Below are positions 1 to 14,207 of a DNA stretch of 20,263 nt, piece after piece. The notes under the pieces were generated by a model that was not told the origin of the DNA, searched no databases, and worked only from the letters and a program-made list of their open reading frames with translations. Source of the DNA: a virus; IMG/VR virus record IMGVR_UViG_3300028045_000138, positions 1-20,263 of that record; one strand, 5' to 3'. The first letter of the stretch is position 1; each line of letters opens with the position of its first letter. Position numbers and translations under genes: made by a program.

Positions 1-769
1 TGTAACGGTTGAAAAAATCCATAGCTTTTTGTTGTTCCTGAGTTACGCCGGGTCTCAACTTGATTTCGTCGTAATATTTACTCTTGGTTTCTTCCAAAAA
101 GTTTTTAGCTTTTGCAACTTCTTCTTTAAACGCAATTTTTTTCTTGCGTATATCTCTTTCCTCATCTATATCTTCGTCGTAATCGTAGTCTTCTAATAGT
201 AGGCTAACGTCATCCGATTCTAAATAAGGTTTTGTTTTTTTATAGTATTCTTTTAATAATGTTTTATCATCAACAGAAGAATAATCTGCATTTAATCTAA
301 CATAGTCTTCAACAGTTCCGCCAGTATCTTCCATAAAAGTTACAAGCTTTTCAATGTTTTCTGGTAAAGGTTTACCTAAAATCTTTTCATCTCTTACGGC
401 TTCTTTTGCTTCCTGAACTACTTGCTTTACTTCTTCAGTTATTTCTTGCAGCGGCAAATTTTCTTTAACATCTTCAATGGACCCTGGGTTTCCCTGTCCC
501 ACTTCTTGCAATCCCACCCGGGGTTGCTCTGTATGTAACACGCCGCTCTCTGCGCTTTGCTCTTGAATGGCATTTGCTTCTTGTTTTAATTCGTCTTTAG
601 GTATAACAACTTTTGTTACATCTGGTTCTAAATCTACTAAGGGTTCTTTAATATTAACCTTTACTACTTCAGGCGCTTTGTTTGATAATTGTTTTGGTCT
701 TTTGGATTTTCCTTTTAAACTAAAGTCTCCTTCCTGCTTAACAGGTTCATTTGTTTTTGTTTCTGACAT
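1..769 (-). CDS. Probable head scaffolding protein, 3'-truncated by window edge
   Basis: Reading leftward from an ATG at 769, an open frame of 256 codons runs off the left edge, so the C-terminus is missing. The protein is strongly charged and mostly acidic, with a disordered K/E/P/V-rich first half. Then comes a better-ordered helical part with 'VEDYVRLNADYSSVDD', 'LLLEDYDYDEDIDEERDI' and 'KLRPGVTQEQQKAMDFFNRY'. Charged, helix-rich proteins encoded directly after the portal gene are usually capsid scaffolds in tailed phages, and I recall this late motif from portal-adjacent genes of marine phages. It follows the portal gene after a 32-nt A/T-rich gap without Shine-Dalgarno. The scaffold role is inferred from position and composition; an internal or minor virion protein is the alternative. 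If correct, the major capsid gene should lie just beyond the left edge. Confidence 0.72.
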   Translation of the reverse strand, partial: MSETKTNEPVKQEGDFSLKGKSKRPKQLSNKAPEVVKVNIKEPLVDLEPDVTKVVIPKDELKQEANAIQEQSAESGVLHTEQPRVGLQEVGQGNPGSIEDVKENLPLQEITEEVKQVVQEAKEAVRDEKILGKPLPENIEKLVTFMEDTGGTVEDYVRLNADYSSVDDKTLLKEYYKKTKPYLESDDVSLLLEDYDYDEDIDEERDIRKKKIAFKEEVAKAKNFLEETKSKYYDEIKLRPGVTQEQQKAMDFFNRY

Positions 770-801: not shown

Positions 802-3207
802 TTAACTAGGGCCAAACTCTTCTAGTCCAAAACCACCCAGAACATCATTACCTGATGATTCAAAATTCTTAGGTAATCCTTCTGTTTGTCTTTGTTGTAT
901 TAGTTCGGATTGTTGTGTTCCTTGTAATTTTATTCTTTGATCTTTTCTATCTTCAATTTCTTGCTCTTTTGCTTTTGTTGCACCCATCTGAGCCTGAGCT
1001 AGTTGTATATTGTACTGAAACTCTTCAGCCATTAGCTCTCTTTTTATTTGAGCCTCTGTCTGCATTCTTTGTATTTCAAATTGTGATTTAGCTTGTTCAA
1101 TGCTAACTTTCTCCTGAGTTAATGCTTGTTGTTTTTGCACTTCTGCCATAGCTGCTCTTTCTGCAGATTCAGCATTGGCTTGAGCTTGAGCTTGAATATT
1201 TGCTTGCTGTTGCTCTTGTTCTCTTTTAATTTTTTGTGTTTGTCTTAGTTTTATAAATTGATTAGCTAATTTAGTATTTTTTATTTCTCGTATATCTATT
1301 GCATCAGATAAAGCAATTGCTCCTGTTTGCAAGGCCATTTGAATGTTTTGCTCAAGCAAAGCTTTTTCTTCCTCTTCAGGCTCTAGTTGAATATAAATAC
1401 CAAAATCATGCAATTGTAAATTCATCAGTTCTTCTAACGTTTCAACATTAAATGTACTTATAGAATTTATTAAAGAATTTTCAGTTAAAGGGTTTTGAAT
1501 TAAATCCGCCACTTTTAAACTTACGTTTTCACAAGTTCTAACTGTTAAGTATAATAACGACTCTAGTAAATGTTTTGTGGCTGTGTTTGAAGCGTTAGCG
1601 GCCATTTTTTGTAATCCAAGTAGAGCATCTTTATCTGGAGCACTACCATCTCTTGCTTCGTTTAAACCGGTTACATCTCTTATCATTTGAAGATAATATT
1701 GATACGTACCAATTAAACTTTGTATTTTAGCTTGTCCAGATGATGATGATAATTCTTGAATAGGAACTTTACCTCTATTTAATTCACCGTCTTGTGTAAG
1801 TGATCTACCTACAATAGAACCAGTTTGAAAATACATATTCAAAGCTTCCGCTGGATTATAATTAGTTCCATTACCTAAATCAACTTCAGCTAAACCATCC
1901 ATATCTAAGAATACACCATCTGGTACTATTCTAGACATTACTTGTTGTAATTTTAAATGAGTTAATTGAATCATATCAGCAAAACCTGTAATTTTACTTA
2001 CTAAAGATTCTATTCTACCTTTATACATTCTAGGTGCAGATATACAGTAATTCATATTTACTTTAGTTGTATCCGCAGTAGGCCTGGTCATATTTTCCGC
2101 CATCTTCCACTCTAGCATGTAATTATTGCCGAGAACTTTAGCACCAGTATATAAAACTTCTATAGATCTAGATACTCTATCAAAATTATCATTTTCTGGT
2201 GGATTAAAAGTGTCAGGTTTTTCTAATGTTTTTTCTAAGCCTTGATCTGTTTTCTTTATTTTAAACACTTGATCAACATAAGTCTTGTACTCAAAGTACA
2301 TAACCTGCACAGTGTTTTGATCATAATTTGCCCAACCAGTAACGTATTGAGAATTACCTGGCATATTTTGTATTCTTTGAAGCTCTTCATCTGGTATATC
2401 CGGAAATTGTTTTTTTAATTCAGGAATACTTATAGCTTTAACTTCTCCTACATAATATATGTCTTCAAAATTTGGATCTTCCGTGTATGAATAAACTATA
2501 CGAGCGGGGTCAACATAATCAACTTTAATACCTTCGCTTAAATCAAATCTTGTTTTTACTGCTCCTATACCTAAAACAGCTAAATCGTAAGCAACTCTTG
2601 CTTTAGTTTGATCATATTTATTAAACGCTAAAACATTATTAATAACCTCTTCTTCTGCTATTTCAACATTCTGCTTGTAGGTCATTTGCATGTGAATATC
2701 TAATTCCTCCTTGCTTTCCGGAAGATCTTCTAAATTTCCAGTTCGAGCCATATCCATTCCTAATTCTTGCTTTATATTTTCAAGCATAGGTTTAGCATTC
2801 ATGTCTTTTTCAATAGCAGCTGCATAATCTGTCCTGCTTTTAACAGAAAAAGGATCTTGTGCGAAGGTTGAGATATCGTATGATTTATTAGCCATACCAT
2901 TAACAACAATGTCTACAAATTTAGATATAACAGCAACAGGTTTCCAGTCTAAATTAAGATAAGATAAATCACCGTTTATTGATAATTCATCTTTGTATTT
3001 TTGAACACTTTGTTCACCTCTAGCATATAATCTTAATCTATGAAAAGTAGCATAAGATTGAACATATCTATTACCCGCTCTGCCTTCCTGAAACCATTCG
3101 CCTTCTATAGCTCTACCTACCTGTATACCGTAATCTAAGCTAGACTTTTCAGCCTCGCTTACTACTTGATTTGGAAATGAACTGTTAGTATTAGTCTGTA
3201 TTCTCAT
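802..3207 (-). CDS. Portal protein
   Basis: An 801-residue protein that should form the dodecameric ring at the capsid vertex through which DNA enters and leaves. The N-terminal 600 residues have portal character, including 'DYVDPARIVYSYTEDPNFED', 'MIRDVTGLNEARDGSAPDKD' and the long-helix segment 'LGLQKMAANASNTATKHLLE'. The last 160 or so residues are a Q/E/A-rich coiled coil ('QANIQAQAQANAESAERAAM'), ending in a loose polar tail. It is longer than typical 500-600-residue portals because of this tail, which in marine Bacteroidota phages is common. It starts immediately after the TerL stop codon (TAA directly followed by ATG), and the scaffold candidate follows, giving the classic terminase-portal-scaffold order. 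The assignment rests on that order plus the internal motifs; residue-level assignment of wing, stem and crown was not possible by eye. Confidence 0.9.
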   Translation of the reverse strand: MRIQTNTNSSFPNQVVSEAEKSSLDYGIQVGRAIEGEWFQEGRAGNRYVQSYATFHRLRLYARGEQSVQKYKDELSINGDLSYLNLDWKPVAVISKFVDIVVNGMANKSYDISTFAQDPFSVKSRTDYAAAIEKDMNAKPMLENIKQELGMDMARTGNLEDLPESKEELDIHMQMTYKQNVEIAEEEVINNVLAFNKYDQTKARVAYDLAVLGIGAVKTRFDLSEGIKVDYVDPARIVYSYTEDPNFEDIYYVGEVKAISIPELKKQFPDIPDEELQRIQNMPGNSQYVTGWANYDQNTVQVMYFEYKTYVDQVFKIKKTDQGLEKTLEKPDTFNPPENDNFDRVSRSIEVLYTGAKVLGNNYMLEWKMAENMTRPTADTTKVNMNYCISAPRMYKGRIESLVSKITGFADMIQLTHLKLQQVMSRIVPDGVFLDMDGLAEVDLGNGTNYNPAEALNMYFQTGSIVGRSLTQDGELNRGKVPIQELSSSSGQAKIQSLIGTYQYYLQMIRDVTGLNEARDGSAPDKDALLGLQKMAANASNTATKHLLESLLYLTVRTCENVSLKVADLIQNPLTENSLINSISTFNVETLEELMNLQLHDFGIYIQLEPEEEEKALLEQNIQMALQTGAIALSDAIDIREIKNTKLANQFIKLRQTQKIKREQEQQQANIQAQAQANAESAERAAMAEVQKQQALTQEKVSIEQAKSQFEIQRMQTEAQIKRELMAEEFQYNIQLAQAQMGATKAKEQEIEDRKDQRIKLQGTQQSELIQQRQTEGLPKNFESSGNDVLGGFGLEEFGPS

Positions 3208-5412
3208 TTATTTTATTATTTTAGACATACCGCCTTTATTGTCGTATCGTTTAATACCTAAATCTATAGCTTTATATTGTATCTTAGCTCTAGGTATATA
3301 TCTATTTTTATTGCAAGCCATTAATGCTAATCCTGAACTTATAGAAGCATCATGCTTCGTTCTGTTGTTTATGTTAAATCTTGCCCAATCCTCTAATGTT
3401 CTTTGAAAATACATATTTCCATATCCCGTTTCTAACAATCCTACTTTAGTGTTTATGTATGTTTCTATAGCTGCAGCATGCGCTTGTTTTATATCTTCAC
3501 TTGAATTAGGTATACCACCTATTTCTCTTTCTGTTACTGAAAGCTTTAATTTATCTGGTCTGTTCATAGAGTAACCTCTGTAACCTCTTCTCTTAAAATG
3601 ATACAGCAATCTAGGCTTATTGTTTTCAGCTAATATCGGCATACCGTAAAACACGCAAGCCATTAAAACATCTTCAAAAAATATTTCAGCAGTTTGTGGT
3701 CTAGCTATATATTCTAAAAAGAAATGATCTGGAGGAACATTTTCCATACTAAACTTTGTTAAGCCATGTAAAGAACCATTAGATCCTCTTCCGTCTACAG
3801 TGCCTGATATGTCATAACTATCACATCCAAAAGCACCACAGTGTTCGTTTCCTGGATATTTTTTACCATTTTTAATTATCATTCGGTTTTGCAGCTCGAT
3901 TGGCGGCACCCAAGATACTTTGAATCTACCATCTTTATTTGGTATAAATATAACTCTAGAATCTTTAACGCCATCTTGCCATTGAAAACTACCTGTAGTT
4001 ATAACAGCTGTATTTTTTAAATCAGCATTATAATCTATTTGCTCATATATTTTAGCTAGATTAAATAAAGATTCTTTAGCTTCATCTCTAAAAGCGTGTT
4101 CTACCGTTCTTGGAAACTGACGATAAAATTCATTAAGACCGTCTTGATCTTCTTTCAACCCTTCAACTTCGTTTTGCCAATACTCTATTACGCCTGTATC
4201 AATTAACTCTCCTTGGGGTCCTTCAGTCGGTTTTTTTGGTGTATTGAATACAGGTAAGCCATAAGAATCAATGTATCCTTCGTAGTTCCATTCCATAGGT
4301 ATGAACAAAGAATAGAGTCCTGAACGAGTCTGTCCATTGGCGTTTCTTTTGTTAACGTCTGAATCATAATATAATTTCTTGTAGTTAGCTCCTCCTTTGT
4401 CTAATGCGTTTGATGTTGATCCCATCATACACTTACCTATAATTCTAGATCCTAATCTTAAACAAGTTTTAGTTACCCTCCAGTTGTTTAATATATTTGT
4501 AGGTCTTTCCCACTTACCACTTTCGTCGTGTACTAATAGTTTTAATTTTTCACCGTCGTACGAGTTGTCCCCAGTGTTCTTCCAGTCGATCGTTGTATCG
4601 AGCCCGGAGATCTCCTTAAGCTTCTCGTTGGTGTCAAGTTTCTTTCTGGTAAATTTCGACGCTGGTACCCTGTACGCGAGTTCTGTCTTCGGCCTGTCCA
4701 TACCGTCCTGGATTGGTTTGAAGAAGAAGGGGTAATTAACGGAAATGGGTACGACCTTATCAGTAAACATCTTTTTGGCGTCTGGCCCGGACTTGGATAA
4801 AATCCCAAATCGAGAATCTGTGGATATTGTTGCCTGATTAACCGTCTCGCCTGAAGCCATGAAAGAGAAACCTGACCGTCTGTTCTTAAGATAACACATT
4901 CCGTAACACCGTTGATCTGCCTTACAAGCCTCCCAGAATAAATAGAATAATCTGTTTGATTCCCTAAAGTCTGGTTGCCCAACATCAATCTTGGACCACT
5001 GCAGGTACATGTAGTTAGTACCAGTAATATAAGTAGACTTGTCTTTATTAATAAACCAAAAGCCTTCTTCGCGCCTTTTAAATTCTGTGTCAATATAGTC
5101 ATACCATTTTTCTTTAAATTCAACTGGATATTCATCCCAGTCAAATACTGATTTAATTCTTTTTAATTCTTTAGGATATTCTGTATGTTCCCATTTATTA
5201 GTTGAAAACTCTTTTATATCTTTTTCTTTAGGCAAAGCTATTCTTAATCCTTGTATATTATATATCTCTCCTATTTCCCCGGTTTTACTTATTACAACAA
5301 AGTCATATTCTTTATTGTAACCGTATTCCCATTTCTTATATCTATTTAATCTACTTAAAACTTTAGGTTTTATAGCATCTTTAACAATATGGTATAATGT
5401 TTGCTTGTACAT
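3208..5412 (-). CDS. terL: Terminase large subunit (packaging ATPase/nuclease)
   Basis: A 734-residue protein expected to translocate DNA into the prohead and cut the concatemer. The ATPase half shows a deviant Walker A-like loop 'LKNRRSGFS' (residues 175-183), a Walker B 'LLVHDE' (292-297) with the paired acidic residues, and a coupling-motif-like 'GSTSNA' (331-336). The C-terminal half fits an RNase-H-like nuclease, with candidate acidic metal ligands in 'FGCDSYDIS' (D531), 'IFFEDVLMA' (E580) and 'KHDASISSG' (D688). The Walker A lacks the usual GKT/S, as in other 'KxRRxG' terminases. Its ATG overlaps the previous stop as TAATG. Codons of residues about 125-287 are much richer in G/C at third positions than the rest of the gene (see the patch feature), yet the reading frame is intact across both edges. 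Confidence 0.93.
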   Translation of the reverse strand: MYKQTLYHIVKDAIKPKVLSRLNRYKKWEYGYNKEYDFVVISKTGEIGEIYNIQGLRIALPKEKDIKEFSTNKWEHTEYPKELKRIKSVFDWDEYPVEFKEKWYDYIDTEFKRREEGFWFINKDKSTYITGTNYMYLQWSKIDVGQPDFRESNRLFYLFWEACKADQRCYGMCYLKNRRSGFSFMASGETVNQATISTDSRFGILSKSGPDAKKMFTDKVVPISVNYPFFFKPIQDGMDRPKTELAYRVPASKFTRKKLDTNEKLKEISGLDTTIDWKNTGDNSYDGEKLKLLVHDESGKWERPTNILNNWRVTKTCLRLGSRIIGKCMMGSTSNALDKGGANYKKLYYDSDVNKRNANGQTRSGLYSLFIPMEWNYEGYIDSYGLPVFNTPKKPTEGPQGELIDTGVIEYWQNEVEGLKEDQDGLNEFYRQFPRTVEHAFRDEAKESLFNLAKIYEQIDYNADLKNTAVITTGSFQWQDGVKDSRVIFIPNKDGRFKVSWVPPIELQNRMIIKNGKKYPGNEHCGAFGCDSYDISGTVDGRGSNGSLHGLTKFSMENVPPDHFFLEYIARPQTAEIFFEDVLMACVFYGMPILAENNKPRLLYHFKRRGYRGYSMNRPDKLKLSVTEREIGGIPNSSEDIKQAHAAAIETYINTKVGLLETGYGNMYFQRTLEDWARFNINNRTKHDASISSGLALMACNKNRYIPRAKIQYKAIDLGIKRYDNKGGMSKIIK
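4550..5040. other. GC-rich, GC3-rich patch inside terL
   Basis: Hand counts per 60-nt line give 53, 48, 47, 47, 45, 43, 40 and 37% GC from 4561 to 5040, against 27% at 4441-4500 and 23-27% at 5101-5220. Codons inside are dominated by AAG, GAC, ATC, TTC, CTC, AAC and GTC, while flanking codons are A/T-ending. The left edge, near 4555, is abrupt; the right edge fades. The patch covers residues about 125-287 of TerL, that is the Walker A half of the ATPase. It also explains the long spurious overlapping frame at 4542-5144. Recombination with a phage of different composition or a chimeric assembly would both look like this. Confidence 0.75.
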
Positions 5413-7353: not shown

Positions 7354-7761
7354 TTATTTATTTTTATTGAATAGTGGCCCTAGTTTGTCCACGATTTTTT
7401 CACCACTCCTACCTATTACATAACCACCAATACCAATTTCTAATAAGCTCCAGAATTCTGGTTCTAAAACAGGTGTTACTAAGTATGTTGATAGCTGTGA
7501 TATAAATTTTGTATATATTATTATAAAGCCAAATGAAAGCATTAGTATCGGTCTCCAGCTTCTCTGTAACCAATTACCTTTAGCTTCGGCTACAATAATC
7601 TCAGTTTGCATTCTTTGCAGCTCTAGTTGAGCGTCTTGTAATACTTTAAATATTGCATTTCTAGCTTTGAGTCTTTCTTCTTCGCTGGTGAATAAGTTGT
7701 CAACCACATCGCCAACTTGTTTGAAGACTTTAGTACTAAAAAATTCTAATATCTTTTTCAT
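7354..7761 (-). CDS. Holin, 3-TM superfamily type
   Basis: A 135-residue membrane protein. An amphipathic, charged N-terminal 60 residues ('FTSEEERLKARNAIFKVLQD') precede the hallmark 'WLQRSWRPILMLSFGFIII' hydrophobic segment. A second hydrophobic region follows ('FWSLLEIGIGGYVIGRSGEK'), with a charged tail 'KLGPLFNKNK'. This 'sWRP..ml' organisation with a terminal 'GGYVIGRSGEK' matches the holins of the 3-TM superfamily (the GTA/phage 'Holin_3TM' family). Holins permeabilise the inner membrane at the end of infection. Its ATG shares one base with the upstream stop (TAATG). No lysozyme or amidase gene is recognisable beside it; the mini metallopeptidase 1.5 kb upstream is the only nearby hydrolase-like gene. 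Confidence 0.86.
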   Translation of the reverse strand: MKKILEFFSTKVFKQVGDVVDNLFTSEEERLKARNAIFKVLQDAQLELQRMQTEIIVAEAKGNWLQRSWRPILMLSFGFIIIYTKFISQLSTYLVTPVLEPEFWSLLEIGIGGYVIGRSGEKIVDKLGPLFNKNK

Positions 7762-8348
7762 TATTTTTTATATCCCTTTTTGGCTCGCGCAGCGTCTTGC
7801 TTCGCTTTCAGCGCTTTTCTTTTAGCAGCTACTTCAGCTAATCGTTTCGCTTTTGCGGTAGCGAGCTTTGCCGCTCCATCAGCTTTCTTTTTTAAAAATG
7901 CTTTTCTTTTAGCCGCTTCATTAACTTTTCGTTGTGCTTTTGCGGCAGCAAGCTTAGCTTGTCCATCAGCTTTCTTTTTCTTTACCGCTGCTATTCTTTG
8001 ATCTCTAGTTAAAGGTTTCTTTTTAATAGTTCTTACCTTACCATCATCCACAACAACTTTGTCGCCTCTACCTGCGTTTACGTTTTTTAAAGCTTTTTTA
8101 ATTTCCCTTTTTTTAACTTTTTTATTTCCACCTTTAGAATCATAAGTCGTGGGTCTACCACCTCCTTTTTGCGACCTACTAGAATTACCAGTTTCTATAA
8201 GGGTACTTTTACCTTCTGCAGAATCTTTAGACGCCTTTCTAGCAAGCTTTCTTATAGCTCCTCGATCAGTTGTATTTTTAGGTTTTTTCTTTTTACCGGG
8301 ATCTGGAAGTGTAAGTGGAGATATAAATCTTTTTATCTTAAATGCCAT
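7761..8348 (-). CDS. Lysine/alanine-rich histone-H1-like protein with MAFK tag
   Basis: A 195-residue, very basic and probably disordered protein. It starts 'MAFKIKRFISPLTLPDPGKK', sharing the MAFK...SP...DPGK opening with the next gene upstream. The C-terminal third is made of two 29-residue repeats (residues 124-152 and 153-181), each 'KKKADGxAKLAxAKAxR' plus 'AAKRKA', which look like histone-H1 C-terminal tails or bacterial HU extensions. Such a sequence should bind nucleic acid non-specifically, so DNA condensation in the capsid or a virion-internal protein is plausible. The tract 'GGGRPTTYDSKGGNKK' is a disordered linker. Its stop overlaps the holin ATG. No enzymatic motif is present, and the function is inference from composition. 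Confidence 0.82.
   Translation of the reverse strand: MAFKIKRFISPLTLPDPGKKKKPKNTTDRGAIRKLARKASKDSAEGKSTLIETGNSSRSQKGGGRPTTYDSKGGNKKVKKREIKKALKNVNAGRGDKVVVDDGKVRTIKKKPLTRDQRIAAVKKKKADGQAKLAAAKAQRKVNEAAKRKAFLKKKADGAAKLATAKAKRLAEVAAKRKALKAKQDAARAKKGYKK
7806..7979 (-). repeat. Two 87-bp coding repeats (29-residue basic unit)
   Basis: Residues 124-152 and 153-181 of the 195-residue basic protein form two units with an exact 29-residue period: KKKADG at 124 and 153, AAKRKA at 145 and 174. At DNA level the units are clearly related but diverged, indicating an old internal duplication retained for its charge pattern. Confidence 0.8.
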
Positions 8349-8361
8349 AATTTATTAATTT

Positions 8362-9246
8362 TTAGTTGCAACCTTTAACTCTACCAAGTCCACTTGGTCT
8401 TCTGTTTCCTTTTACTTTAGCTTTCGTAATCTTCGGCTGCTTTTTCTTTTTACCTGGCACAATAGGCCCTACTGTTATATTACTAGGTTTTTTAGGCTTA
8501 GCCTTTAAGTCAATTTTAGGTTTTGGTGTTTTTGCTGAAATCTGCACGCCTGCAGGTTTAGCATTACCGTATGTAAAAGTTTTTGTTCTAGTACCGGACT
8601 TTTCAGCATTGAACTTTTTAGCAGCAATCACGTCCCCGCCTTCTTTTTCTAACTGCTTATAGCTTTTACCAGTTTTTTTACCACCTGTTGACGTTGTATA
8701 AGGCTGACTAACTGTAACTCTATTAAATCCATACTCATCCTTATCTTTTTTAACAGTTGTTTTTCCGTATTTTCTTTTTGGATCTTTTGCAGCTAATCTA
8801 TCTGCTTTACGTTTTTTATTTTTTGGATCTTTTGGATCTTTTGGATCACCTACAGCTTTAACCGGAGATCCTCCTTTGCGTTTAGCTCTTGCAGCTAATC
8901 TATCCGCTTTACGTTTTAACTGTGCTTTATAAGATGGGTTTTTAGATTTTTTAGCTTTTTCTAATGCAGCCTCAGATTTAGATTTAGCTTTGTTAGCTCT
9001 CATTTGCGACTTAGATACTCCTGCTGCTTTATCTGCTTCTTTCCTAGCTTTTATATTTGCTCTAGAATTTTTAGAAGTTTCTTTTTTAACAGTAGTTTCT
9101 TTGGATCGTGGTGTGAATTTTTTAGATTGCATAGAAACTTTGTTTATAGCATCTAATACATTTTCTTCTTTTTCTTTATTTTTATTTTTACCAATCTTTC
9201 CAGGGTCACCAAACATTGGTAGCGGTGAGTTCATTTTAAATGCCAT
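8362..9246 (-). CDS. Large lysine-rich low-complexity protein with MAFK tag
   Basis: A 294-residue, highly basic, low-complexity protein. The N-terminus 'MAFKMNSPLPMFGDPGKIGK' is the fullest version of the shared MAFK-x-N-SP...DPGK peptide. Internally it contains two 'KRKADRLAA' copies, the tripled 'DPKDPKDPK', and an 'SPVK' motif resembling the SPKK-type minor-groove-binding unit of histone tails. A somewhat more ordered segment ('YGFNRVTVSQPYTT') lies in the middle. It ends in 'RRPSGLGRVKGCN'. It is flanked by two other MAFK-tagged genes and has only 2-nt and 13-nt spacers, so the three are probably co-expressed. A virion-internal DNA-binding role is plausible; no catalytic motif is visible. 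Confidence 0.82.
   Translation of the reverse strand: MAFKMNSPLPMFGDPGKIGKNKNKEKEENVLDAINKVSMQSKKFTPRSKETTVKKETSKNSRANIKARKEADKAAGVSKSQMRANKAKSKSEAALEKAKKSKNPSYKAQLKRKADRLAARAKRKGGSPVKAVGDPKDPKDPKNKKRKADRLAAKDPKRKYGKTTVKKDKDEYGFNRVTVSQPYTTSTGGKKTGKSYKQLEKEGGDVIAAKKFNAEKSGTRTKTFTYGNAKPAGVQISAKTPKPKIDLKAKPKKPSNITVGPIVPGKKKKQPKITKAKVKGNRRPSGLGRVKGCN
8789..8917 (-). repeat. Internal repeats: 27-bp direct repeat and three 9-bp units
   Basis: A 27-nt sequence starting 'gcagctaatctatctgcttt' occurs at 8789-8815 and again at 8891-8917 with one substitution; both encode KRKADRLAA. Between them three perfect copies of 'ttttggatc' (8821-8847) encode DPKDPKDPK. Together they suggest slippage and duplication within the lysine-rich gene. 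Confidence 0.85.
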
Positions 9247-9248
9247 AA

Positions 9249-9560
9249 TTATTTCGCTTTTTTATATGCTTCAGCTTCCCAGGGTAAATTTTTAGCCCCT
9301 TCTTGCATTTGTTTTCTTGAATATTTTTTACCTTTCCAGTATACGTTTTGATTGTCGTAGTCTAAATCACCACGCTTCATCTGGTCAATGTGTACTTTTT
9401 CGTGCGCTATTACACTTTCTTTTTTTTCTGGATCTACGTCTTTATTTATTATTATAGAACCATTATTGTTGGCTTTACCTAAAACGCCATCTTCCATATC
9501 CACATGATATATTGGAGTATTGTCAAAATTATAAGGCGGGTTATTTAGTTTGAATGCCAT
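9249..9560 (-). CDS. Mini zinc metallopeptidase (HEKVH) with MAFK tag
   Basis: A 103-residue protein starting at 9560 ('MAFKLNNPPYNFDN'). The longer frame from 9602 would add 14 codons overlapping the terminator hairpin and is rejected. Residues 51-59 read 'IAHEKVHID', a HExxH zinc motif (H53, E54, H57). 'LPWEAEAYK' near the C-terminus offers E95 or E97 as the third ligand, the layout of minimal gluzincins such as DUF4157-like domains. A strand 'GSIIINKDV' precedes the helix, as expected. It carries the same N-terminal peptide as the lysine-rich proteins downstream. Possible roles are prohead maturation, virion peptidase or peptidoglycan endopeptidase; no direct evidence separates these. There is no signal peptide. 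All zinc ligands appear present. Confidence 0.8.
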   Translation of the reverse strand: MAFKLNNPPYNFDNTPIYHVDMEDGVLGKANNNGSIIINKDVDPEKKESVIAHEKVHIDQMKRGDLDYDNQNVYWKGKKYSRKQMQEGAKNLPWEAEAYKKAK

Positions 9561-9568
9561 AAATTGTT

Positions 9569-9603
9569 TTAAAAAAAATCCTGCGGGATAATACACCCGC
9601 AAG
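9569..9603 (-). terminator. Rho-independent terminator
   Basis: On the leftward strand a perfect 6-bp GC-rich stem TGCGGG/CCCGCA (plus-strand 9582-9587 and 9596-9601) with an 8-nt loop is followed by GGA and a run of eight T (plus-strand A8 at 9571-9578). It lies 14 nt after the stop of the 122-residue gene and just before the metallopeptidase start. It is the best terminator in the window and implies that the upstream gene is made in excess of the downstream ones. Confidence 0.9.
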
Positions 9604-10056: not shown

Positions 10057-10659
10057 TTATCCTTTATATCCAGACTTTGATGCAGCTTGTGCATTTTCAG
10101 CGTAGTGTTTTCTAGCAGATTTACTTAAGCTTTGATTTGAAGCTTCTTTAATATCGTACTTCATACCTAAATTTTTAGCCGGTGAGCCTTTATACTCCAT
10201 TTTTCCTGCATCTTTTTTCTTACCTTTTCTGATTGCGCCGGACTTTTTTAATTGTTTAAGAGTATCATAATCTTTAGGATTTGCTTTTTTCAATTTACCG
10301 CTTTTTTTCGTTCCTCCTTTTTTCATTGCGCCATCGCCTGGTCCTGTTTTTTTAGCCGGTGATCCGTAATCCGCTTTGCTAGCTGATTGATCTCCTTTAG
10401 AAGATCCTGTTTTACCTTGGTAGCCTTTGTCAGTTTTTCCTGAATCCATAGCATAGTCAGATCTTGTTTTAGATTGATCTCCTTTCATTGCTCCTTTCAT
10501 CATCATCGCTGATCCGTATGATTTAGATCCTCCCATTTGCATAGGTGTTGACATGTGTTTTGATAATGGGTTTACGCTAAGTAGATTCGATCTCTCTTGA
10601 GAAGCGGATTCTTTTGCGTAACCTTTATTCTGGTTTTTCATTGGTGATTTGTAATTCAT
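10057..10659 (-). CDS. Lysine/serine/glycine-rich low-complexity protein
   Basis: A 200-residue, basic and disordered protein with N-terminus 'MNYKSPMKNQNKGYAKESAS'. It contains two 'GSPAK' motifs ('YGSPAKKTGPGDGAMKKGG', 'YKGSPAKNLGMKYD'), methionine-glycine-rich stretches ('GSAMMMKGAMKGDQS') and a lysine-rich helix around 'LKQLKKSGAIRKGKKK'. The C-terminal 'SLSKSARKHYAENAQ' is the most ordered-looking part. It belongs with the other SPxK-containing basic proteins of this region. Its leader ends in the recurring 'AAATAAATAATTATG' start context. The next gene downstream is preceded by a 70-nt leader. No enzyme motif is seen; nucleic-acid binding or a virion-internal role is inferred only from charge. 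Confidence 0.8.
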   Translation of the reverse strand: MNYKSPMKNQNKGYAKESASQERSNLLSVNPLSKHMSTPMQMGGSKSYGSAMMMKGAMKGDQSKTRSDYAMDSGKTDKGYQGKTGSSKGDQSASKADYGSPAKKTGPGDGAMKKGGTKKSGKLKKANPKDYDTLKQLKKSGAIRKGKKKDAGKMEYKGSPAKNLGMKYDIKEASNQSLSKSARKHYAENAQAASKSGYKG

Positions 10660-10688: not shown

Positions 10689-11078
10689 TTAACAGTTCCA
10701 TTTTCTTCTAGCAGCCTTGCCTCTTTCTGATTTCCAGCTTCTAGATCTAGCACAAAATGATTTTCTACGCTTAGCGGCTTTACTTCCGGGTTTTAACTCG
10801 GACGGAGGCGTCGTTACTGCCGTACTCAACTTGCTACCAGGATTGTCTTTTCTGTATTTTTTAACCCCCCTGCTAGTCATACCTCCACCTGCTGCAGCAC
10901 CTGTACCTCCACCTTTTTTTACTTCAGCATAATTACCTTCCGATTTTTTTCTAGATGGAGCATTTCCTTTTTCTGCTTTTCTATTAGCTCTTCTTTCCTG
11001 ACGAAATTCTTTTCTTTCAGTTCTAGCTGCGCTTTTTTTCTTTTTGGCAAATGGTGAATCGTGTTGAATATAAGCCAT
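10689..11078 (-). CDS. Basic protein with DUF6321-like C-terminus
   Basis: A 129-residue protein. The N-terminal half is arginine/lysine-rich and disordered ('MAYIQHDSPFAKKKKSAART'), with an 'HDSPFAK' version of the SPxK tag. The C-terminal half is conserved-looking: 'GVKKYRKDNPGSKLSTAVTT', then 'SELKPGSKAAKRRKSFCARS' and a cysteine-ending 'RKWNC'. That 'KLKPGSKAAKRRKSFCAR' signature matches what I remember as DUF6321, a small uncharacterised family found in cyanophage and other marine phages. The two cysteines (in 'FCAR' and the last residue) are typical of that family. The start has the recurring 'AATAAATAATTATGGC' context. The function is unknown; its position among virion-type genes suggests a structural or DNA-associated role. 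Confidence 0.82.
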   Translation of the reverse strand: MAYIQHDSPFAKKKKSAARTERKEFRQERRANRKAEKGNAPSRKKSEGNYAEVKKGGGTGAAAGGGMTSRGVKKYRKDNPGSKLSTAVTTPPSELKPGSKAAKRRKSFCARSRSWKSERGKAARRKWNC

Positions 11079-11969: not shown

Positions 11970-12413
11970 CTATCTATTTTTGTCTTTATTAACTATTTCT
12001 ATTGCTTTCTTTAAAACCTTATCCGTATAAGACTTTCCTGCCATTATACTGTTTCTTCTACTTGTAGGAACATCTTCTTCACCTAACATCATTCTGTACA
12101 TCCTACTTATTAGTTGCTTGCATTTAAAAGAAACTTTATATATATGGTATTTTTGTGTTGTTCGATTTCTTTTTCTCCATACAGTTATCCAGCCTTCTTT
12201 AAGTAATCTATTCCACCTACGGTTATCCCAACTATAAGAGTAGGTACCCTCCATAAAATCATTTTTAGTAAAGAACTCCATACAATCAAAATAGATTAAT
12301 AACTCTAAATCAGCGTCATTAAGGTTGTTGTTCTTACAAGCCCACTTACGTATTATGCGATAATGTTTTAACAAGTTCATATCTTTGATATCTCTTGCTT
12401 CTAGCCTTCTCAT
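11970..12413 (-). CDS. Winged-helix (MarR-like) DNA-binding protein
   Basis: A 147-residue protein with a winged-helix layout: helices 'DADLELLIYFDCMEFFTKND' and 'RRWNRLLKEGWITVWR', a basic beta-wing 'RKRNRTTQKYHIYKVS', then a C-terminal helix 'CKQLISRMYRMMLGEEDVP'. The 'L..L...GWI..WR+R......Y..S.K...L...MY+.L.GEE' run is MarR-like, as in several phage proteins with a basic recognition surface. Its ATG overlaps the groES stop (ATGA), so it is co-translated with the chaperonin pair. It may control late transcription or the groE set, or it may bind DNA during head filling. No effector-binding pocket can be read from sequence. The tail 'KAIEIVNKDKNR' is charged. Confidence 0.78.
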   Translation of the reverse strand: MRRLEARDIKDMNLLKHYRIIRKWACKNNNLNDADLELLIYFDCMEFFTKNDFMEGTYSYSWDNRRWNRLLKEGWITVWRKRNRTTQKYHIYKVSFKCKQLISRMYRMMLGEEDVPTSRRNSIMAGKSYTDKVLKKAIEIVNKDKNR

Positions 12414-12670
12414 AAAACAACAACTACATCTTTGTTTTTTATTATATGATAAGTTTCTTTACTGTATTCTATCTTATGACCAGCATGTCGATCAAAAAAT
12501 ATACTATCTGTTTCATTTATTCCTTCAACGAGTTCTCCTACACTTATAACAGTTGCTTCAGTATATCTTATATCTTCTCTGTGGTTTTCAGCAAGAAGTA
12601 AACCGCCTTTTGTTTCAGCGGTTCCTTCTTTGAGCTTTTTTATAATTATGTTATTACCTACTGCTCTCAT
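12410..12670 (-). CDS. groES: Co-chaperonin GroES
   Basis: An 86-residue protein, slightly shorter than bacterial GroES (about 97). Diagnostic parts are 'GNNIIIKKLKEGTAETKGGL' with the mobile loop 'KGGLLLAENHRED' (LLL at the IVL position that contacts GroEL), 'EATVISVGELVEG', and the last strand 'YHIIKNKDVVVVL'. The roof hairpin region 'FFDRHAGHKIEYS' is in the expected place, although the usual 'VGDxVxF' turn reads 'ETDSIFF', so it is divergent. Its first 17 nt overlap the end of groEL, and its TGA overlaps the next gene. GroES caps the GroEL ring during folding. Order groEL then groES is reversed relative to the usual bacterial operon. The assignment is firm. Confidence 0.92.
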   Translation of the reverse strand: MRAVGNNIIIKKLKEGTAETKGGLLLAENHREDIRYTEATVISVGELVEGINETDSIFFDRHAGHKIEYSKETYHIIKNKDVVVVL

Positions 12671-14207
12671 CGATTCTTAAATTATTAATTACACAATCGG
12701 TTGATAAAATAGTAGTAGCTACTGATACCGCATTTCTAAGCGCGCTTTTAGTAACTAGTAATGGATCAATGATCCCAGACTTAATCATATTTACTGATTT
12801 ACCAGTAACTACATTAAGGCCTATTCCTTTAGATTTAGGATCTTCAACATCTATTATACCGGCATTTTCTAGTATTGTCTTGTAAGGAGCTTTAATTGCC
12901 TCTAAGAGTACTGTTTCGCCTATAGACTTAGTCTTTGTATTTGATGCTGCATTTAACAGTGCAATACCACCGCCTGGAACTATACCTTCTTTTATAGCAG
13001 CTTTTGTTGCACAAATAGCATCCTCAACTCTATCTGTTTTTTCTTTTAATTCAATCTCAGAATTTGCACCAACTTTTACTATAGCTATTTTAGCAGAAAG
13101 CCTAGCTAATCTTTTTTCAAGCTTGATTACTTCATGAGGGCGCTTTGTTTTTGTTATTTGCTTTTTAATATCATCTATGATATTTAAAATTTCCTCATTA
13201 GATTCTTCGACTTGAAGTACTGTTTCTGTTTGAGATGTTACACTTTTTAAACAACTACCCAGATGCTCTACTTGGATCATATCCATATCATCACCTAAAT
13301 CCTCGTTGATTATTGTAGCACCTGTTAATAAAGATAAATCTTGCAGAACTTCTTGCTTACTTACTCCGTAAGTTGGAGCATTAATCACATTAACTTTTAT
13401 ATTACCTTTATTTTTATTCATAGCTAGAGCAGATAAAACACCTTGTTCTAAATCGCCTATAATAAGCAAAGGTTTATTGTTTTTTATTACGTACTCTAGT
13501 ATAGATTGTATTTGTCTTATTGTATCTACTGGTGACTCTATAAGTAGAACCAATGGATTATCTAACTCGGCTGACTTTGTTTGTTTGTTTGTTATAAAAT
13601 GAGAATTTGTTAATCCTTTTTCATATTGAACTCCATCTACAATTTCAACAACAGTCTCTCCATTGGCAGATGTTTCCATCATTACAACACCTGTATTATC
13701 AACAGCTCTAAAAGCGTCTGCTATTATCTTGCCAAGTTCAGGATCATTGTTTGTTGATATAGTTGCTATTTGATCTATCATAGTATTTTTAACTTTGACC
13801 GATATAGCCTCCAAGTAATCAATTACTTTTTCAGTGGCACTATTAATACCATCTTTTAATTCTCTTGAATTTTTTTTATCCGAAACTTTATATGCCTCCT
13901 GTAAAATAGCATGGGCAAGAACTGTAGCTGTAGTGGTACCATCACCTGCTTCTCGAACTGTTTTTCTAGCTGCTTCTTTTAAAAGCGTAGCACCCATGTT
14001 TTCTACCGGGTCCCGCAAGATTATTGAATCTGCTACTGTAACACCGTCTTTTGTTATAATAGGGTTTCCAGTATGATCCTCTAGCATTACACATTTACCG
14101 CTAGCTCCTAATGTTGAACTAACTGCGTTTGTTAGTTTTTCTATACCTTTGAACACATTAACCCTGGCTTCTTCTCCAAAGTTAAGGTTCTTAACGATTG
14201 CCTCCAT
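12654..14207 (-). CDS. groEL: Phage-encoded chaperonin GroEL
   Basis: A 517-residue protein, near the usual 540-550 but lacking the GGM-rich tail, ending 'LRIDESSR'. The ATP site is intact: 'ITKDGVTVAD' (51-60), 'GDGTTTATVLA' (88-98), 'RVEDAICATKAAIKEG' (D396 equivalent to catalytic D398), 'PGGG' (411-414) and 'GIIDPLLVTKSAL'. The apical domain is divergent. By motif alignment with E. coli, the substrate/GroES groove residues Y199, Y203, L234 and V264 appear as L, H, Q and N, while F204 and L237 are kept. Phage GroEL/GroES normally fold capsid protein. The pair is embedded in the structural block. It has a 71-nt A/T-rich leader and no Shine-Dalgarno. The assignment is certain at family level. 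Confidence 0.97.
   Translation of the reverse strand: MEAIVKNLNFGEEARVNVFKGIEKLTNAVSSTLGASGKCVMLEDHTGNPIITKDGVTVADSIILRDPVENMGATLLKEAARKTVREAGDGTTTATVLAHAILQEAYKVSDKKNSRELKDGINSATEKVIDYLEAISVKVKNTMIDQIATISTNNDPELGKIIADAFRAVDNTGVVMMETSANGETVVEIVDGVQYEKGLTNSHFITNKQTKSAELDNPLVLLIESPVDTIRQIQSILEYVIKNNKPLLIIGDLEQGVLSALAMNKNKGNIKVNVINAPTYGVSKQEVLQDLSLLTGATIINEDLGDDMDMIQVEHLGSCLKSVTSQTETVLQVEESNEEILNIIDDIKKQITKTKRPHEVIKLEKRLARLSAKIAIVKVGANSEIELKEKTDRVEDAICATKAAIKEGIVPGGGIALLNAASNTKTKSIGETVLLEAIKAPYKTILENAGIIDVEDPKSKGIGLNVVTGKSVNMIKSGIIDPLLVTKSALRNAVSVATTILSTDCVINNLRIDESSR

Follow-up and report, generated by a model that had tools for sequence, protein, structure and literature searches.

The window analyzed here, a whole stretch of 20,263 bases, belongs to a podovirus-like phage and encodes a portal protein, a terminase large subunit, GroEL and GroES, tail fibers, and a holin (Table 1). 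Just before the holin lie three consecutive, abutting minus-strand genes (9560-7761), all of which start with MAFK: MAFKLNNPP in a small metallopeptidase, MAFKMNSP in a 294-residue protein, and MAFKIKRFISP in a 195-residue protein. From residue 21 on, the three bodies share no significant BLASTP similarity with one another (best E value, 2.4), which bears out the original prediction that an N-terminal MAFK peptide is common to three neighboring genes with unrelated bodies. GroEL and GroES of the phage itself are encoded upstream of these genes (12410-14207), and a GroES-like gene precedes the terminase in cultured relatives too. Although the window has a holin, no recognized endolysin was seen in it; in related phages, this region (here 9249-9560) contains lysins, of the M15 type or others.

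Table 1. Features of the window and their coordinates
Feature	Coordinates	Strand	Remarks
Acidic protein; candidate scaffold	2..769	-	In relatives, sits between portal and capsid genes
Portal protein	802..3207	-	phrog_6547, E 6e-141; context
Terminase large subunit	3208..5412	-	phrog_6681; clade marker
Holin adjoining the tagged genes	7354..7761	-	phrog_3427, E 2.1e-31; PF11351
Lysine-rich (25% K) protein, 195 aa	7761..8348	-	Start MAFKIKRFISPLTLPDPGK
Tag of the 195-aa protein	8292..8348	-	First 19 codons
Lysine-rich (23% K) mosaic protein, 294 aa	8362..9246	-	Start MAFKMNSPLPMFGDPGK
Tag of the 294-aa protein	9196..9246	-	First 17 codons
Small HExxH zinc metallopeptidase, 103 aa	9249..9560	-	MAFKLNNPPYNFDNTP; start MAFKLNNPPY
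Metallopeptidase tag	9531..9560	-	First 10 codons
200-aa basic protein	10057..10659	-	Start MNYKSPMKN; internal SP motifs; wider tag form; cluster 8
DUF6321 protein	10689..11078	-	MAYIQHDSPFAKK; SP tag MAYIQHDSPFAKKKK; PF19846, E 3.7e-9; wider tag form

Translation of the metallopeptidase starts at the ATG at 9560, the listed TTG at 9602 being merely the start of the longest open reading frame. Across 32 relatives, H53, E54, H57, and E95 are invariant, as is M1, and F3 and K4 are kept in at least 90%. The protein matches phrog_16532 and the phrog_87 metallo-protease weakly, and Peptidase_M78 stayed below the cutoff. In its AlphaFold model, disordered residues 1 to 10 (pLDDT, 52) precede a core with a small zincin fold. 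The top PDB fold matches, weak ones (E, 0.05-0.3), are IrrE/PprI and minigluzincins, with selecase and abylysin among them. The HExxH motif, the glutamate that follows further along, and the small zincin core fit an IrrE/minigluzincin-like metallopeptidase; a profile search against PDB sequences gave marginal matches to MJ1213/selecase only. The start M[AG][FY][KR][LMI] is kept in all 25 relatives with less than 72% mutual identity (two via an internal start), and M-[AG]-[FY]-K is retained in relatives that are 32 to 50% identical, followed by a linker of variable length and sequence that leads into the catalytic core. A viral collection held 458 relatives, of which 80 loci were fetched. In cellular genomes, the protein occurs in metagenome-assembled bins only, several of them labeled Bacteroidetes; since most have tagged neighbors, these are probably phage contigs.

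The 294-residue protein belongs to no Pfam family, has only a weak PHROG match (E, 0.02), and has no match in deposited phages. Two of its segments, 30-106 and 160-235, are also present in other tagged proteins but at different places in the chain. Among the lysine-rich tagged proteins (this one and those of L007, L011, and L083), shared segments are reordered, and some have their last 24 residues in common. The 195-residue protein has a single full-length relative (L092, 63%), other matches covering residues 1 to 29 or the last 24 only, and its MAFKIKRFIS/IPASPL start is found in relatives on bodies of 73 to 395 residues. DPGK, which had been proposed to accompany the peptide, is minor and local (7 of 39 MAFKI genes and 1 of 47 MAFKM genes); we rejected it as a general part of the tag, and its presence in the two lysine-rich N termini may reflect common descent.

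Spread of the start peptide in a marine podovirus clade

A terminase matching that of the window was found in 23 of the 24 longer tag-bearing records, with intact copies 74 to 85% identical, so that the carriers form one clade. Its members are uncultured ocean podoviruses, and their hosts are probably Bacteroidetes. The nearest complete genome outside the clade, MW202828, has a terminase 64% identical to that of the window, and those of the cultured elemo, Cellulophaga, and Tenacibaculum phages are 31 to 45% identical. The tag is absent from the fetched stretches of MW202828, elemo, phi13:2, phi38:1, and Gundel_1, all outside the clade. A separate observation concerns MW202828 and an elemo phage, both of whose giant structural genes enclose a small open reading frame, MPFKSK[QA]QMKACY..PKWDCKKW.KETP, that is read from the same strand but in a different frame (L235:9593-9724, minus strand; L237:40088-40216, plus strand). 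It is possibly a conserved nested gene and was not found within the giant genes of the window's clade.

Within the clade, the start peptide takes approximately the form M-A-[FY]-x(1-8)-[S/A/N]P-[LFMY]-x-K, the core being SP followed by a hydrophobic and then a basic or amide residue. Many of the 80 loci have, in the slots beside the metallopeptidase, genes with MAFKIKRFISPLH, MAFKIKRFIPASPL, or MAFKIKAPF-like starts on bodies of 73 to 395 residues, and pattern scans added MAFKMKGSP-type starts. Wider forms were taken from ten records of 51 to 67 kb, where late-gene starts include MAFKMKGSPLQK, MAYIQSNSPFTK, MAYKQSPLNIK, MYTQNSPFSKK, MSSPFNK, and MKSPLNIK. Among genes that do not start with MAFK, the core SP[LFMIAHYV]x(0-2)[KQNR] occurs within residues 1 to 10 at 5.3 per 1,000 positions versus 0.4 in shuffles. 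MAFK itself opens 18 of 865 other nonredundant genes (0.4 expected; 8 body groups), a count taken in loci fetched only through the metallopeptidase.

Altogether, 395 nonredundant tagged genes fall into about 100 BLAST-defined body clusters, an upper bound since BLAST splits short basic families; the set has a few false members, as the expressions used also catch the start of a terminase (MYKQ) and that of a portal protein. The MAFK form alone spans 41 clusters. The search of relatives revealed a tag far more widespread than the three genes of the original prediction, with at least eight clearly different bodies, including the metallopeptidase, DUF6321, DUF5872 and its N-terminal half, mosaic lysine-rich proteins, and a glycine-rich virion protein. 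Depending on the genome, the DUF5872 body bears MAFKMKGSPLQK, MAFKMKPSPFKN, MAYTQPNSPFKK, or MAYQSPFNK, so that the forms look interchangeable. The tag is absent from DUF6321 relatives in Pelagibacter phages, Venkman, and S-TIP28, from DUF5872 in Roseobacter phage CRP-7, and from HExxH relatives in two other phages outside the clade. In some genomes, no more than one or two genes are tagged, and some conserved structural proteins have no tag. Cyanophages S-N03 and S-TIP28, Venkman, and Roseobacter phage CRP-7 have DUF6321 and DUF5872 genes at the terminase large subunit gene or close to it (loci L284, L285, L289, and L283), a hint of a packaging-related role.

Late genes, destination, and alternative readings

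In ten long genomes, with "late" defined as the strand carrying the terminase and structural genes, the tag is present on 50 of 426 late genes and on 0 of 318 early genes (Fisher P = 2.6e-13), against shuffle expectations of 4.1 and 2.2, respectively. Tagged genes occupy several separate spots of the late region, some of them on the other side of the giant structural gene, a long way from the holin. Their products are small, a few being longer than 300 residues, and basic (median net charge per residue, +0.087 versus -0.007; P = 6e-9). Two genes ahead of the giant structural gene lies a homologue (E, 4.9e-7) of phi38:1 gp99, whose annotation is virion structural protein. In this family, the members from G015 and L178 have an N-terminal extension with SPF or SPL that is absent in eight aligned orthologues; judged from these alignments, two orthologues of a virion structural protein have gained the tag as an extension. 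A PHROG scan of ten late proteins of G008 turned up no prohead-protease family, some structural genes having no match of any kind, and no conserved cleavage site is visible. The published description of the elemo phages contains no virion proteomics that we could find.

What is conserved is the peptide and not the DNA, since synonymous codons vary nearly freely under the tag: codons 7 to 9 are identical between body clusters at 0.39 to 0.45, versus 0.34 to 0.38 expected from codon usage. A conserved 5' end acting as a recombination site for body swaps, with a peptide devoid of any role, would suit the visibly mosaic lysine-rich bodies, but this near-expected identity makes it very improbable, as does the finding that tags of different bodies are no more alike within than between genomes (173 of 353 pairs). 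The same count gave no signal of within-genome coadaptation of tags and thus no sign of adjustment to a genome-specific receptor. We give little credence to a start-region expression signature, in which A-rich early codons (ATG GCA TTT AAA) would favor translation in hosts with little Shine-Dalgarno pairing. A-rich synonymous choice is indeed general at codons 2 to 6 in these genomes, and the codon excess at tag codons 2 to 4 is mostly this general bias; however, the SP[LF]xK core at residues 5 to 12 and the 13-fold enrichment in non-MAFK genes are left unexplained, portal, capsid, and GroEL genes do not have such starts, and the amino acids of the tag are kept while its codons vary. Diverged paralogues that retained only their N terminus could account for the SP and DPGK common to the two lysine-rich proteins of the window, and BLAST may have broken up a single family into some of the body clusters. 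Yet the zincin, DUF6321, DUF5872, and the glycine-rich virion protein are plainly unlike one another, and untagged versions of three of them exist elsewhere, leaving common descent a scarcely credible explanation. Simple duplication, the objection that the original prediction had raised against itself, is excluded by about 100 body clusters, nonhomologous bodies, and conservation at the peptide level.

The tag might instead send late proteins to a nonvirion partner, such as the phage GroEL, the host membrane, the lysis machinery, or the host nucleoid. Late-only expression is no proof of a virion part, the window genes abut the holin, and GroEL and GroES are phage encoded. We nonetheless regard such a destination as unlikely, given the tagged genes beyond the giant structural gene and the addition of the tag to orthologues of a virion structural protein. 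Nor is the tag a hydrophobic signal peptide.

Good support exists for a protein-level tag at the N terminus of unrelated bodies. In the reading that we favor, with a probability of about 0.6, the start peptide acts as a targeting signal by which late phage proteins are brought into the virion during assembly, and most likely into its capsid interior. Virion localization is the destination best supported by the sequence data, through the restriction to late genes and the gain of the tag by orthologues of a virion structural protein. Counting against it are the missing coadaptation of tags within genomes, the conserved structural proteins and cultured relatives in which no tag was seen, and the genomes in which hardly any gene is tagged. 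The original prediction is partly supported: the targeting function that it suggested fits a peptide conserved on unrelated bodies, while its suggestion of prohead processing is unsupported, with neither a protease family among the structural genes scanned nor a visible conserved cleavage site. The tag would bind the capsid shell or a scaffold, and cargo would be captured in this way; the acidic protein at the edge of the window, which has no PHROG match, is a putative receptor. In the capsid interior, small basic proteins, together with enzymes like the metallopeptidase, would then travel alongside the DNA, and this cargo may be delivered into the host on infection. We more tentatively envisage, at somewhat less than even odds, a clade-wide peptide code, in which an interchangeable N-terminal motif bound by capsid or scaffold swaps dozens of unrelated cargos into the particle for host delivery, with a diversity far beyond that of T4. 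If the tag does direct proteins into the virion, the cargo of an abundant uncultured phage group could be read straight from sequence, and dozens of uncharacterized small genes, DUF5872 and DUF6321 members among them, would be given a function class. The tag would also provide a compact signal for loading proteins into phage capsids and make internal-protein loading testable in phages without a T4-type core.

Comparison with known targeting systems

The original prediction held that no tag-based cargo system had been described, which is incorrect. The internal proteins IPI, IPII, and IPIII of T4, small and basic with divergent mature parts, carry an N-terminal capsid targeting sequence of 10 to 19 residues (PMC9026906), and an N-terminal capsid targeting signal directs DarB of P1 into the head (PMC9024508). 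The likeness to T4 lies in a short conserved N-terminal peptide on otherwise divergent, late, small, basic proteins of a tailed phage. The clade differs in the peptide itself (MA[FY]x..SP), in its unrelated phage lineage, with portal and terminase in their own PHROGs, and in its many more body types. Moreover, the T4 sequence is cleaved by gp21, whereas no gp21 counterpart was found here among the late proteins scanned, and incorporation is predicted; as neither a protease nor a cleavage site was found, we do not claim membership in the T4 type. The Dar proteins of P1 have no consensus among them, while the consensus of the clade spans many proteins.

Encapsulins load unrelated cargo into an HK97-fold shell through a short terminal motif, which is N terminal in an example from ferredoxins (PMC8346489). 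Their peptide is usually C terminal, however, and they form a cellular compartment with one or few cargos per shell. A large virion cargo load is also known from crAss001, a podovirus of Bacteroidetes, with its capsid and tail cargo proteins gp45 to gp50 (PMC10172136); these cargos are large conserved proteins, and the part of that paper drawn on here reports no shared N-terminal tag. Our literature search returned nothing relevant on MAFKMK or on a marine N-terminal capsid motif. The principle of a targeting peptide is therefore already known from T4, P1, and encapsulins; within the scope of these searches, what appears to be new is the motif, together with the lineage of the phages and the wide range of cargo.
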